Below, piece after piece: positions 14,568 to 63,561 of a stretch of DNA of 64,000 bases. How positions within the stretch are numbered: position 1 is the first letter of the stretch; every line of letters begins with the position of its first letter. Below the pieces are notes generated by a model, which did not search any database, was not told the origin of the DNA, and saw nothing but the letters and a program-made list of their open reading frames with translations. This DNA comes from a virus. The translations under genes and the position numbers were made by a program. Where the stretch lies: positions 180,851 to 244,850 of the IMG/VR virus record IMGVR_UViG_3300032331_003609, one strand, 5' to 3'.

Positions 14568-15350
14568 ATGTCTTTACAAAATAATTTACAAGAATCTAAT
14601 ATAGAAAGGGCTCAGCACTTTCTGGGTGTTGTTGTGGATAACAAAGATCCAGAATTCAGAGCAAGATGTAAGGTTAGGGTTTTTGGTATTTTTGACGATG
14701 TTAAGGACGAGGATTTACCCTGGGCTTTTCAAAGATTTGATATTTCGTTTGGTGACGGCGGAGGATCGGGGAGAGTTAGTATACCAAAGCTTGGTTGTAT
14801 AGTCCATGTTCAATTCAATAACGGAAATTATTATTCACCCGAATACAAAGCAGTACAGGAACTTTCTAAAGATTTAATAACAGAAATAAGCGCATCCTAT
14901 GAAGGTGCGCATTCTTTAATATACGACGGAATAGAAAAACTAAAAATCTATTACACTGTTGCGAAAGGATTGGTTATAGATTTAAAAGAATCAACAGTTG
15001 TCATATCCAATGACAATTCTATAACAATAACACACGCAGGACAAACATCAACCCTTGAATTTAGAGGAGGAAAAATAACTGAATTTGCTAATTCTGAAAT
15101 TGAAAGTACTGCTACAACTAGAATTAAACAAAGTAGCAACGAAGTATGGGTAGATGGAAAAACAACGAAACTAGGACATGCTCCGGTATACTCTGCAATT
15201 CTTGCAGAACCCCTGTGGATGTTTTTAAAACAACTTGCAGCTGCAGTAGATGCTAAACTACCATCAACCCCAGGTACAATGACAAGTCTAGCTGAAAGCT
15301 ATGAACAACTTTCAACTTCTGATGTGGTTAAAGTAACAAAGTCTAATTAA
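14568..15350 (+). CDS. Baseplate spike protein, gp5/gpV-like
   Basis: A 260-aa protein with an N-terminal OB-fold-like domain: HFLGVVVDNKDPEFRARCKVRVFGI, LPWAFQRF, GRVSIPKLGCIVHVQFNNG. This is the characteristic layout of T4 gp5/P2 gpV/VgrG spike OB domains (G.V..n.Dp...GRvkVr..g, P..G..V.V.F..Gn). The C-terminal half is a series of short beta strands (STVVISNDNSITITHAG, STLEFRGG), fitting a trimeric beta-helix needle. No lysozyme domain is present, unlike T4 gp5. It would be the membrane-piercing tip attached to the hub. Confidence 0.75.
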   Translation: MSLQNNLQESNIERAQHFLGVVVDNKDPEFRARCKVRVFGIFDDVKDEDLPWAFQRFDISFGDGGGSGRVSIPKLGCIVHVQFNNGNYYSPEYKAVQELSKDLITEISASYEGAHSLIYDGIEKLKIYYTVAKGLVIDLKESTVVISNDNSITITHAGQTSTLEFRGGKITEFANSEIESTATTRIKQSSNEVWVDGKTTKLGHAPVYSAILAEPLWMFLKQLAAAVDAKLPSTPGTMTSLAESYEQLSTSDVVKVTKSN

Positions 15351-15355
15351 GATAA

Positions 15356-18300
15356 ATGGATTTTAATTTTAATAAACTTCAAGATATAAGTGATAGAATC
15401 TCCAGCGGGGAGCTTAAACCTGAGGATGTTCTGAGTGAATTTGGTGGATTTACCGATGACCTTCCTAGTGATGAGGAAATAATTAGCAATGCCGAGGAGC
15501 TTGAAAAATCAATAGATCCTGTTCCTATGATATTAACAGACGACGAGATTAATGATCTTATCTGTGCATATGAAGGAGAGGAGCTTGCTAATAGAATTTT
15601 TTGGGAGATATTAAGAAAGCAAAACTATTTAGACAGAATAACAGAAAGACCTGATTTTTTAAGAAATAGATATTTTGATAAATTCATGGATGATAACGAT
15701 TTATCTGATAGACTATTAAGTGCTAAAGAAATGGTATCTGACAGTTTAGATCTTGATTTACTTGGAATAAAATTTACAGGATCTAATAAAAAAATTAGGA
15801 AATTTAAAATAGGTCCGTTTGGATTTGAAATACATGTTATAACACACAAGGGAGTTCCCCTGTTTTTTCACGTTGCTCCAAAAAAAATGTCTATTCAATT
15901 TATAAGGGATCAGCTAAAAAAGAAAGGTAAAAAAGGAAAAGCAAAGAAATGCTCGGATGATATTTATAACAAATATGGATCTGGCGCAGGGCCAGCAACT
16001 TCTAACAATGGAGACTTTGGTGCAGGAACAGGATCGGAAGCTGGTTCAGATTCAGGATTTGGGGCTAATAATATAGATCCCGAAAATCTTGTATCTCTTC
16101 TAGATAATATTTTAGAGAGGGAATCTTCGGAAAGAAATTCAAATAATGCTTTTGATGTATCTGATATAGTAGATCAGGTTTTTTGTGAGCCCGATTTTCC
16201 TATTAATCCTGAAACAGGGGAACCCTTATTTACAAAGGATGATTTAAAATCTTTCATAGAAGAAATTTGTCTTCCAGAGAACGAATCTGCAATACCGGAG
16301 GTCTTACCAGAAGGCGGAATTGAGGACGTCGGCGAAAAAATAAACAAATGTCTTAGCCAAGCTAAAGATATTTTTAAAGATATAAGAGAAAATAACGAGC
16401 TTAGATCTAGATACGAAAAGGCAGAAAAAGATCTGGAAGAAATTCTTTATCACTATAAAATAATTAAAAATTATTATAACGGTCTTTCTAAAGCATTTGA
16501 GGCAAAAGCAAAATCTGGGAAGAAAGGAAATCCATTAAAGCTAATTCTTGGTTTAGTTCTAGCAACGTCGGATGCTAATAAATTCCTAGACGAGGTTAAG
16601 AATTTTTCTGGTAGATTTAAAGATACTAAAAAACAATCAACACCTGGTAAAAAAGGATATGTTGGTATTAAATTTAATCTGTCTTTTCCCCACGGACTTA
16701 AAAAAGAAATACCCTACGAAACAGTTAAACCTGAAGCTACTTCAGATCTTTTATCAACTAATTATGAAAGGGTAGATATCACACAATTACAGTTAGGGAT
16801 GGAATTTTCAAGTAAAGGTATCTTAGGATCAGGTAATTCGTCCTTTCTTAAATCATACGAGGACTTTATTATTTTTAAAGACGATAATCCTAAACTTGAC
16901 GTTCCTTTTTATAACTTTATTCAGGATATAGAAGGATCTAATAAATCTAAAGATGCTATTATAAAAGATATAGAAAAAAATCATGGATTTCTTTATTCTA
17001 CTCTTTTAGAGATATCTGCTAGTCCTTGGTTATTTTTTACCGAAGAAGAAAGAGGTGATAATAATGCAAGAAAATCTTCTGATATTAAACCTAAAAGTAC
17101 AAACAGCGAGGGAGAGCCTAATCAATCTTTTTATGATTTTTGGGGAAATTTTAAAAAATCTTTTGATGTTAAGTATACTGCTAGAAAGAAAATAGTTGAA
17201 GATAAAATAAAATCAATAAAAGTTTTATCCGACAAATTTGTTGATTCACTTGCTGATTATTATTTCACGGTAAACATGAGTTCAGCTTCGGATAACAGTA
17301 AGTTATTAAAAGATGTATCAGATAAAGCAGATAAAAATGTTGGGTATATTGAGGATCTTTTATTGATGATAGCTCAAAAAATTCAAGAATTGGACCAACA
17401 AAATTCTCCCGAAGTTTTACAAGCAAGAGCTGAATCAATAGATTGTTTTGGATCAGCGGACAATGGAAATGGAACAGGTGGATCAACATCCAGTGGTATT
17501 TCAGTAAATCTAGATGCAAACGGTGGTATAAAAAATTCTGGCGGAGATACAATAAAGGCAGCATGTCCTCCAGATTGCTGTGGATCACCGGGTCAAGCAT
17601 TCTCTGGAGGAAATATACTAGATGGATTAAACTCTCCAGATTGCCCTAATCTTTTTACTACATGCTATTGGAAAGAATTTGCAAAAAAAGCTACCACTGT
17701 TGGAATTCTTCCTTTACCGAATGGATTACCCCCAATAGAAAATCCCGCAGGATTTCTACCTAATATTGGATTAAAGTATTGGCCGGTGGGGTATCTTCCT
17801 CCATCTTTTATTCCATTGCCTCCTCCTTTAGTTAATCCTTTAGATGGAATGCCTTTTATAAGAATCCCAATGCCAATGATATGGACAGTGATTCCTCCTA
17901 TAGTTATACCTTTACCGATAGGGGTTATTGTAATATTCATTCCTTTCATTGGAGGATTTATGCCTAGCCCTTTAGTTTTCTTTCATGATTTTTTAACAGG
18001 AAATTCTATATTCCTTTTAGGAATTAGAGGGTTTAGATTTATTCCAAGAAAATCAGATCCCGTTATACCGGATCCTTTAGTTAGATTAAAACAATTTTTA
18101 TCCCTAGGAGTTCCTAATTATCTTTTTCCTTTTCCAAATTTAGGAAAAGATAATGTAGATGATCCTAAAAGAATAAAGAAAGATATACTAGCAAATCTTA
18201 AAAAAAGATTAGCAAATGCTAAGGTTAATATAGATTTTTCTAAAATACAAAAAGTACAAGACGATCTAGCAAAAAAGAAAAAAGATCTAGAAGATCAAAT

Positions 18301-60152: not shown

Positions 60153-60821
60153 ATGAAACATCTTCAATCATACGAATTATTAGAAAGCAGCGACAAGTAC
60201 GTTAAGTCGTATAGCCCTCAGAAATACAAAAAAATCACGGGCAATGACTCTGCCCCTGGATTTACTGGGTGGATCTATAATATTTTCACTTCCTTGAAGA
60301 ATAATTTCGAGAATATGGATGGGTTCTTCAAGAGCAATGTGTATATGAAGGATATCCACGGAAATGCAATAGACACGGGAATGGGCTGGCTAATTGGGCA
60401 AGCAGGATCTTTGGCTACCTCTGTTGCAGCTAAGATATTTGAACCTAGCGAGTTTGTTAGTACAAATTGGAAATCATCCGATGGATCTATGTTACAAGCA
60501 CCAACATCTGATAAAGATGTTAAAACAGAGCATCTTAGATTGTTCAATGATAATTTTGCAAAAAAAGATATGCCTAACATTAAAAATGATGAAGATATGA
60601 AATCATGGATTACTGGATTTTACAAAAAAGCAGGTACTTCTCCGGGAAAGGTAAAATGGGCGGACGATGCAGTATCAACTGCTTCTAATACTTACTTTAA
60701 TAAGTCAAGGGGAATGGGAAGAACAGCAGCAGCAGGAACAGAGATAGTAGCAGGTGCAGAAGGAGCTGGTATTTTAGGAACTGCTGGAGAATTAGCAGCT
60801 GCTGTTCCGATGGTTCCTTAA
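60153..60821 (+). CDS. Hypothetical protein with Ala/Gly-rich C-terminus
   Basis: A 222-aa protein. The first 190 residues are polar with several aromatic residues and mixed structure (FTGWIYNIFTSLKNNFEN, ending in SNTYFNKSRGMG). The last 35 residues are Ala/Gly-rich and mildly hydrophobic (GAGILGTAGELAAAVPMVP), which could pack against a membrane or other subunits. No known motif is seen. It begins just downstream of a putative late promoter, so expression in the late phase is likely. Confidence 0.55.
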   Translation: MKHLQSYELLESSDKYVKSYSPQKYKKITGNDSAPGFTGWIYNIFTSLKNNFENMDGFFKSNVYMKDIHGNAIDTGMGWLIGQAGSLATSVAAKIFEPSEFVSTNWKSSDGSMLQAPTSDKDVKTEHLRLFNDNFAKKDMPNIKNDEDMKSWITGFYKKAGTSPGKVKWADDAVSTASNTYFNKSRGMGRTAAAGTEIVAGAEGAGILGTAGELAAAVPMVP

Positions 60822-61559: not shown

Positions 61560-63530
61560 ATGGCAGGGATAAAACATTTGAGTGAAATTTATAAAAAGCA
61601 AGGAGCAGAATTCCTTGACGATTTATTTGGGAAGGAATTGATAGTTTCTGAAAAATTGAATGGTATGAACTTCTCTTTTGAGAAGAGTATCTTTGATGGT
61701 TCTTTATCATTTTATAAAAGAGATCAGGTTAATCCTATTTCTAAGATTGATCGGGTACTAATGAAGTATTATGAATCTCCAATTTCACATATACAAGAAT
61801 TACCTACATTAACATTAGACGAGGTACCTAGCGGATGGAGATTCGGTATGGAATTTTTTATTAATCCAAGTCCAGTCTTAATATCTTATCAAAGAATACC
61901 TAGAAATGGCCTAGTACTAACCCACATCATAGTTAAGAATCAATTTGGTGATATAGAAAGAACTATAGTGGAAAAAGAGGAATTGGATTATTGGGCAGAT
62001 CTTTTAGGGGTTGAGAAAGCACCTATTATTTTTCAGGGTAAATTATCAGACGATCAAAAAGTATCTATTAACGATTTTGTTAATTCTGCTCATGATAATC
62101 TAAAAACAGATCACGGAACTAACAGCTTTGCTAAATATCTACTTAGTATATTAAATCCAGAATTAAATAAAACATTTTTAAATAATTCTTTAGAAGAACC
62201 AATAGAAGGTGTAGTTTTCAGATTTGGATCAATTGATGGAACCGGTGAATCTTTCACTGCCAAAATATTAGATCCTGTTTTTGAAGACATCACTAGACAG
62301 AACAATGTTAAAAAAGTAAGCTACTTTCCAAGTGACATCTACGGTATAACAATATTGGAAGTAATGAACTACATCTTGGACAAAGGAATAGATTCATTCT
62401 CTTTTGAGGGCGAAGATCCACAGGACAAGTACATTTCTTTTGTATGTTCTGTTTTTAATTCTTTCACGGATGAATATGGAGAAAAATATTTAGGTCTTGA
62501 TTTTCAAGAGCCAGAATTTTTAAAGCAAGAAGGATTCCAACCAAATCATGATCTAATTAAAGATGAAAAAACAAAATCATTAATCTCTGATGATGAAAGT
62601 TATGAATCTCTTTTCAAATTAATTCTTTCTGCTTTTAGAAAAATTAAGAAAAGACCAGGAGGATTTTTCACACAAGGAGCTATTGAGCAGTTCAATTTGC
62701 TTGTTAGAGAAATATCAGAATACCTAAACAATAATTCTATTGTTGTTGAATCGATGATTCCAACTTTTGACCAATTTAGAAAAGTAAAAAAACCATTTAT
62801 TCCTCAAGAAGAAGAGGGCGAGGAAGATATCGAAGATGAGGTTGAAGAAATTCCTAAGGAGAAGATAATAGAAGAACCAGTAGAAGAACCAGAGATAGAA
62901 ATTGAAATAGAAGAAGATCCAATAGGGGATGAGGTAGTGATGGATCCAGAAGTTGTTGATCAAATAAAAACAGCACTTGGACAAAGCGAACCTATTTCTA
63001 AATCTGGATTCGATGATGATGCTATAAAAGTAAACATAGTTATAGGAAAATTCCAACCTTTTAATAATGGTCATTTAAAAATGATTAAAAAGGCAAATCA
63101 AAATAACGGATTACCAGTTGCTGTGTTTGTTGTTAAACCTGGACCTCATAGCTTTATTGATGATCAGACAATGGATAAAATGATGGGAATAGTATCTAAT
63201 GATCTTTCAGGTATAATAGAGTCAATTCATTACATTGACGATGATCTTTTATCAACAGTAGTTCATACACTTGGTAAAAAATATGATCCAAAAACTTTAA
63301 CAGTTGGTAAGAAAAGACTTGATAACTATTTACTTCAAACAAGATCCCTAAAGAAGAGAAAAAAATTAGATCCAGCCTTTCAAATTCAAACATCACCAGA
63401 ATGGATTAATTCGGAGGATGTTTCCAGAACTATCCAAGAAAAAAATTATATGGAATTTAAAAAGAACGTGCCAAAATCACTTTCTGGCCTTTGGGAAGAA
63501 TTAACAAGATGTTACGATTCCTCTAAATAA
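61560..63530 (+). CDS. Bifunctional protein: RNA/DNA ligase-like domain fused to NMN-adenylyltransferase-like domain
   Basis: A 656-aa protein. N-terminal domain: VSEKLNGMNFSF with Lys32 matches nucleotidyltransferase/ligase motif I (K.DG variant, here KLNG). Near residues 205-230, PIEGVVFRFG (motif IV) and FTAKIL (motif V, Lys) follow. A very acidic linker (about 415-462) joins this to a C-terminal domain, residues 489-656. This has an IGKFQPFNNGHLKM segment (NNGH, 502-505, versus HxGH) and SEDVSRTI near the C-terminus, like the cytidylyltransferase/NadM-type fold. It may repair RNA or make NAD+; neither activity is proven. Terminator and promoter motifs follow. Confidence 0.7.
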   Translation: MAGIKHLSEIYKKQGAEFLDDLFGKELIVSEKLNGMNFSFEKSIFDGSLSFYKRDQVNPISKIDRVLMKYYESPISHIQELPTLTLDEVPSGWRFGMEFFINPSPVLISYQRIPRNGLVLTHIIVKNQFGDIERTIVEKEELDYWADLLGVEKAPIIFQGKLSDDQKVSINDFVNSAHDNLKTDHGTNSFAKYLLSILNPELNKTFLNNSLEEPIEGVVFRFGSIDGTGESFTAKILDPVFEDITRQNNVKKVSYFPSDIYGITILEVMNYILDKGIDSFSFEGEDPQDKYISFVCSVFNSFTDEYGEKYLGLDFQEPEFLKQEGFQPNHDLIKDEKTKSLISDDESYESLFKLILSAFRKIKKRPGGFFTQGAIEQFNLLVREISEYLNNNSIVVESMIPTFDQFRKVKKPFIPQEEEGEEDIEDEVEEIPKEKIIEEPVEEPEIEIEIEEDPIGDEVVMDPEVVDQIKTALGQSEPISKSGFDDDAIKVNIVIGKFQPFNNGHLKMIKKANQNNGLPVAVFVVKPGPHSFIDDQTMDKMMGIVSNDLSGIIESIHYIDDDLLSTVVHTLGKKYDPKTLTVGKKRLDNYLLQTRSLKKRKKLDPAFQIQTSPEWINSEDVSRTIQEKNYMEFKKNVPKSLSGLWEELTRCYDSSK

Positions 63531-63536
63531 CAAATG

Positions 63537-63561
63537 AATCCTGCCAACGCAGGATTTTTTT
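63537..63561 (+). terminator. Intrinsic terminator
   Basis: ATCCTGC (63538-63544) pairs perfectly with GCAGGAT (63549-63555), extended by an A-T pair (63537/63556), around a CAAC loop, followed by a run of T to 63561. It sits right after the stop of the ligase-NMNAT fusion and ends that transcription unit. Confidence 0.85.

Follow-up and report, generated by a model that had tools for sequence, protein, structure and literature searches.

The gene at positions 61560-63530 (+) of the window, the 64-kb stretch analysed here and the final part of a 244,850-bp virus record, most likely encodes an RNA-ligase-type enzyme joined to a repurposed partner of nucleotidylyltransferase (NTase) fold, as judged from its sequence and predicted structures. 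The 656-residue product, designated P0001, is specified by a single ATG-initiated open reading frame (ORF). The neighbouring genes encode a UvsW-type helicase, a UvsY-like protein and a DNA primase, from which we infer that the source virus is a T4-like jumbo phage. Direct reading of the sequence downstream of the gene revealed a terminator-like hairpin (AATCCTGC-CAAC-GCAGGATT) followed by a T run at 63537-63556 (+), with its stem listed for the opposite strand, which is likely to mark the end of the transcription unit.

Eight close relatives of P0001 (66-97% identity) and a ninth, L022 (63%), are encoded on viral contigs, and no cellular relative was found in the search of genome contigs. In the alignment of nine sequences, comprising P0001 and eight relatives with 68-97% identity to it, the residues EKLNG, FGMEFF, IEGVVF, FTAKILD and GKFQPFNNGH are invariant. 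The dN/dS ratios of both halves are about 0.01-0.15 where dS is unsaturated, with those of the NTase half at 0.03-0.15, and the ratios of the linker are somewhat higher (0.08-0.19). Among the same relatives, the ligase half is 72-81% identical, as compared to 53-64% for the NTase half. We conclude that the ORF is genuine and conserved, and that purifying selection acts on it.

Residues 1-240 (61560-62279 (+)) form a nucleotidyltransferase domain of RNA-ligase fold, as indicated by PF09414, Foldseek and the model. The core motifs I, III, IV and V, including the motif I lysine, are all present. Motif I, EKLNG (residues 31-35, 61650-61664 (+)), contains the putative nucleophile Lys32, motif III, GMEFF (61845-61859 (+)), contains E98, motif IV, EGVVF (62205-62219 (+)), contains E216, and motif V, AKILD (62259-62273 (+)), contains K235. 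The core is followed by a helical module (residues 241-409, 62280-62786 (+)), modelled with low to medium confidence. The Pfam match of P0001 to PF09414 (RNA_ligase; E 0.0018, 18.9 bits) lies under the gathering score of 27, and its match to PF01467 (CTP_transf_like; E 0.0029) is likewise under the curated cut-off. The relative L022 exceeds both thresholds, with 27.2 bits for PF09414 and 27.1 bits against a cut-off of 21 for PF01467. At the sequence level, both matches of P0001 appear to be more than chance.

The AlphaFold model of residues 1-409 was of medium quality, with a mean pLDDT of 69.5 and values mostly of 60-95 within residues 1-240. When this model was compared with the PDB by Foldseek, the top match was T4 RNA ligase 2 (Rnl2) on nicked nucleic acid (2hvr_A, E 7.5e-9), followed by RNA editing ligase 1, Trl1, and the archaeal and Naegleria RNA ligases, while characterised DNA ligases came far behind the RNA ligases (E about 0.1). 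Residues 1-409 are thus modelled as an RNA-ligase fold. In the viral library (BFVD), the top match was a 'cytidyltransferase-like' protein from an uncultured phage, and the matches also included a protein of a Campylobacter phage. A profile comparison of the ligase half with T4 Rnl2 aligned motif I alone, with no significance, and the ligase profile had zero matches among the PDB sequences.

P0001 shares with T4 Rnl2 (gp24.1; PF09414) the motif order I-III-IV-V, the fold and the helical module after the core, and its EKLNG follows the same pattern as motif I of T4 Rnl2, EKIHG (EKIHGTNF-like). On the other hand, the sequence match is weak, the helical part is longer, and P0001 bears the additional NTase-fold domain and acidic linker. 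Furthermore, motif V of T4 Rnl2 has a K-x-K pair, whereas this pair is absent from the P0001 clade, which has one conserved lysine. Because of this single lysine, we classified P0001 as Rnl2-like and not as a certain Rnl2. An NAD+-dependent ligase (LigA) was ruled out, since P0001 has just 31 residues ahead of the motif I lysine and hence no NMN-binding Ia domain.

The two halves are connected by an acidic linker (residues 410-484, 62787-63011 (+)), which is variable in length and evolves faster, as seen in the alignment and the dN/dS ratios. The following residues 485-656 (63012-63527 (+)) were modelled confidently (pLDDT 92), and their closest PDB structures are PPAT, NadD and NMNAT (Foldseek, E 1e-7 to 1e-5). 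Together with PF01467, the model confidently predicts a HIGH-superfamily nucleotidylyltransferase of PPAT/NadD/NMNAT fold. This domain shares the fold and the GKFxPFxxGH loop with the characterised HIGH nucleotidylyltransferases (PPAT/CoaD, NadD, NadM and NadR; PF01467), but the close clade departs from these enzymes at three catalytic motifs. In the altered (H/T)xGH signature, GKFQPFNNGH (residues 496-505, 63045-63074 (+), with H505), the first histidine is replaced by asparagine, so that HxGH reads NNGH. The former GxDR site is GKKR, lying with the basic segment after it in KKRLDNYLLQTRSLKKRKK (63309-63365 (+)); in the clade this basic stretch reads KKRLDNYLLQxRSLKKRKK. The ISxTxxR motif is eroded to INSEDVSR (63405-63428 (+)), and its arginine is not conserved. 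L022 has kept the canonical HNGH, its sole retained NTase catalytic motif. Given the low dN/dS ratios, the altered NTase half is being maintained and is not decaying.

These results bear out part of the preliminary description of this gene, which had proposed, from the letters alone, the fusion of a ligase-like with an NMN-adenylyltransferase-like domain. The fusion is supported by the Pfam matches of L022 and by AlphaFold and Foldseek for both halves. The KLNG, EGVVF and lysine motifs that it named correspond to K32, E216 and K235, the acidic linker lies at about residues 410-484, and the asparagine in GKFQPFNNGH and the numbering of H505 were correct. Structure prediction of both halves, which it had suggested, returned the RNA-ligase fold (medium model) and the HIGH nucleotidylyltransferase fold (confident), and the survey of fused and split forms that it had also suggested found both in several phage groups. 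Its author knew of no described enzyme with this architecture, and we likewise found no published description in the literature searched. The fusion is not unique.

The fused ligase-NTase order is found in the Campylobacter phages CP220/CP21 and the Vibrio phages Va1/pv27 (phrog_27149, annotated as hypothetical). These proteins, of about 480-500 residues, lack the long acidic linker, and the profile similarity of their ligase half to that of P0001 is weak, although both groups turned up among the structural matches. The reverse NTase-ligase order occurs in Microcystis phage Mel-JY01 and the huge phage LR756508, while in Stenotrophomonas phage Ps15, Xanthomonas phage X1 and one Synechococcus phage (S-SM1) the ligase-like and HIGH genes lie side by side. 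The ligase-like assignment in Ps15 and X1 was made from motifs by eye, as Pfam gave nothing there. A Pol-beta-like gene (GDIDI, by eye) is located upstream in X1 and Ps15, and also upstream of the Vibrio fusion. In S-SM1, a DUF6267 protein (KWDG, HEGFV) is encoded directly 5' of the cytidyltransferase; DUF6267 is present in two other cyanophages but is not adjacent to the cytidyltransferase there (adjacent in one of three). The cyanophage cytidyltransferases (phrog_395) share a homologous HIGH domain with LR756500; they and DUF6267 (PF19782) are encoded by separate genes, and the ligase nature of DUF6267 is suggested by its motifs only. UniProt A0A6J5NWC5, a 623-residue cytidyltransferase-like protein of an uncultured Caudovirales phage from the BFVD, is 34% identical to P0001 over the ligase half; it is uncharacterised and named for the NTase domain alone. 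When viral sequences were scanned with the Vibrio-type, LR756500 and L022 proteins as queries, nothing was returned but the same or identical loci.

The HIGH halves are homologous across most groups with the pairing. Profile comparisons among the ligase families and T4 Rnl2 gave mostly non-significant scores, and the sole link to reach E 3e-4, between the ligase halves of the window's clade and the Campylobacter/Vibrio proteins, had a probability of 40%; we therefore do not claim common ancestry of the ligase families. In our view, no clue to function is stronger than the repeated linkage, and the two folds probably work together. Some further observations were made at these loci. Between the Pol-beta-like and ligase-like genes of the Stenotrophomonas and Xanthomonas phages lies a protein (L013:1297-2241 and L044:1147-2151) that resembles a PD-(D/E)XK nuclease by eye, and in phrog_12709 the Stenotrophomonas PD-(D/E)XK-like protein is joined to the ligase-like protein. 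The DUF6267 protein of S-SM1 (L047:2796-3770, PF19782) bears KWDG, HEGFV and VKL, like a ligase-type nucleotidyltransferase, and no mention of DUF6267 was found in the literature searched.

On more distant branches, the pattern of catalytic residues varies. The fusion of LR756500 (462 kb) reverses that of P0001, with the motif I lysine changed to asparagine and canonical NTase motifs, and its adjoining gene encodes a separate protein with the ligase motifs EKLDG and EGIVF. The two longer phages LR756501 and LR756502 have kept the ligase-like half alone, with the motif I lysine changed to aspartate. In L023, the motif I glycine is replaced by alanine and the HxGH region is lost. Since the losses differ among the window's clade, LR756500, LR756501/LR756502 and L023, separate branches have lost separate activities, and the altered motif I of distant relatives means that ligation is not what the family as a whole has conserved. 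LR756508 and the split forms likewise have canonical or near-canonical NTase motifs.

Within the record, the fusion gene is the sole RNA-ligase-like gene found, being the only PF09414 match, and PF09511/Rnl1 was not found. The record also has, at 149177-149737, a gene for a dedicated DNA ligase of the ATP-dependent kind. RNA repair linked to RlaP was ruled out, as RlaP was not found in the record, and a second NTase or RNA ligase that might complement the eroded domain was likewise not found there. The record encodes 13 tRNAs and one tmRNA, which are possible RNA clients of the ligase; the phage tmRNA, with a readable tag peptide, lies beside the 13 tRNA genes (record positions 80042-80466 and 80473-95637). 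Six of the seven other phages having the pairing encode an Rnl1-type RNA ligase, so that their paired ligase is not simply a tRNA-repair ligase and routine tRNA sealing may not be its job. Elsewhere in the record, a Pol-beta-like nucleotidyltransferase (158557-159300) has a capsid-targeting-like N-terminus, and its homologue adjoins the ligase-only relative in LR756502. N-termini of the MKxLxxFExF type, resembling the T4 capsid-targeting peptide, begin 24 of 262 predicted genes of the record as compared to 4 of 1234 internal methionines, although the 24 include several ordinary signal peptides. Examples are at 105905-106564 and 15211-16164 of the record and at 60153-60821 of the window, a neighbour of the fusion gene. 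This enrichment in the sequence suggests that many internal head proteins may be packaged in this phage.

We tentatively favour, at somewhat less than an even chance, the reading that P0001 is a phage enzyme of the Rnl2-like kind, either an RNA ligase or an enzyme that adenylylates RNA ends, with the NTase-fold domain in a substrate-handling role. In this scheme, Lys32 would accept AMP from ATP and transfer it to the 5'-phosphate of an RNA, and that end would then be sealed to a 3'-OH; the substrate would be RNA and not DNA. The C-terminal domain would bind or position the substrate through its retained fold and acquired basic segment, and NAD+ synthesis would not be its primary role in the window's clade. 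In its favour we count the ranking of RNA ligases over DNA ligases by Foldseek, the invariant ligase motifs, the separate DNA ligase gene, the stronger conservation of the ligase half, the low dN/dS of the NTase half despite its changed motifs, and the tRNAs and tmRNA as possible clients. Against this assignment we count the sub-cut-off Pfam scores, the medium ligase model, the non-significant profile comparison with T4 Rnl2, the single motif V lysine, the altered motif I of distant relatives and the Rnl1-type ligase already present in six of the seven other phages. Alternatively, both domains could be successive active enzymes of one uncharacterised nucleotide- or RNA-end chemistry, in which an unusual substrate of the HIGH domain needs different residues. 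The occurrence of the pairing in either domain order and as neighbouring genes, the Pol-beta-like gene that the Vibrio loci have in common with the Stenotrophomonas/Xanthomonas operons, and the canonical or near-canonical NTase motifs of LR756500, LR756508 and the split forms are all consistent with this possibility, which we nevertheless consider rather unlikely, given that three NTase motifs changed together in the window's clade and the HxGH region is gone in L023.

A structural or virion-associated protein, its folds kept for binding only and its catalysis vestigial, would fit the distant branches on which catalytic residues were lost while the remaining domain was kept, as well as the location of relatives near portal or baseplate genes in Campylobacter and Xanthomonas phages. 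Cyanophage NTase relatives also have capsid-targeting-like N-termini, and one was detected in the virion by mass spectrometry (PMC10665884), for which the authors suggested packaging but also allowed carry-over. However, the window's clade shows no variation in the ligase motifs and the N-terminus of P0001 (MAGIKHLSEIYKKQG) bears no capsid-targeting-like peptide, making this role unlikely here. As to the function given in the preliminary description, its option of RNA ligation or repair agrees with the RNA-ligase fold, but its proposal of NAD+ restoration, or of NAD+ supply to the ligase, is not supported. Restoration or salvage against NADase defence, in which NMN and ATP are converted to NAD+ by the C-terminal domain and the ligase is a passenger or consumes the NAD+, would suit the NMNAT-like fold and the presence of NAMPT elsewhere in huge phages and in Xanthomonas/Stenotrophomonas phages with relatives. 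It is very unlikely in view of the eroded NTase motifs and the missing Ia domain, and because no NAMPT (PF04095) was found in the 244,850-bp record or the 219-kb relative, records that may be incomplete. Moreover, the phage route described in PMC9503650 consists of NadV plus NadM/NadR, with different architectures. A broader joint reading, which we hold to be decidedly unlikely, is that a Pol-beta-like NTase, a ligase-fold enzyme and a HIGH NTase constitute a recurrent phage module for an undescribed RNA- or nucleotide-end chemistry in early infection; its parts would be fused or adjacent and sometimes virion-packaged, with P0001 as the fused ligase-HIGH form.

Surveys of jumbo phages and of NAD+-ADP-ribose systems describe phage RNA ligases, NMN adenylyltransferases and NadM/NadR fusions, and the parts of these sources consulted make no mention of a ligase-NMNAT fusion (PMC9503650, PMC7824862). 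Several unrelated phage lineages, some of them infecting cultivated hosts (Campylobacter, Vibrio, Stenotrophomonas and Xanthomonas), have fused two AMP-moving folds or maintained them as a pair, and this repeated linkage makes a shared function testable. Phage NMNAT-like domains should not be regarded as NAD+ rebuilders by default, and the linkage could give a role to families now labelled 'hypothetical', 'cytidyltransferase' or DUF6267.
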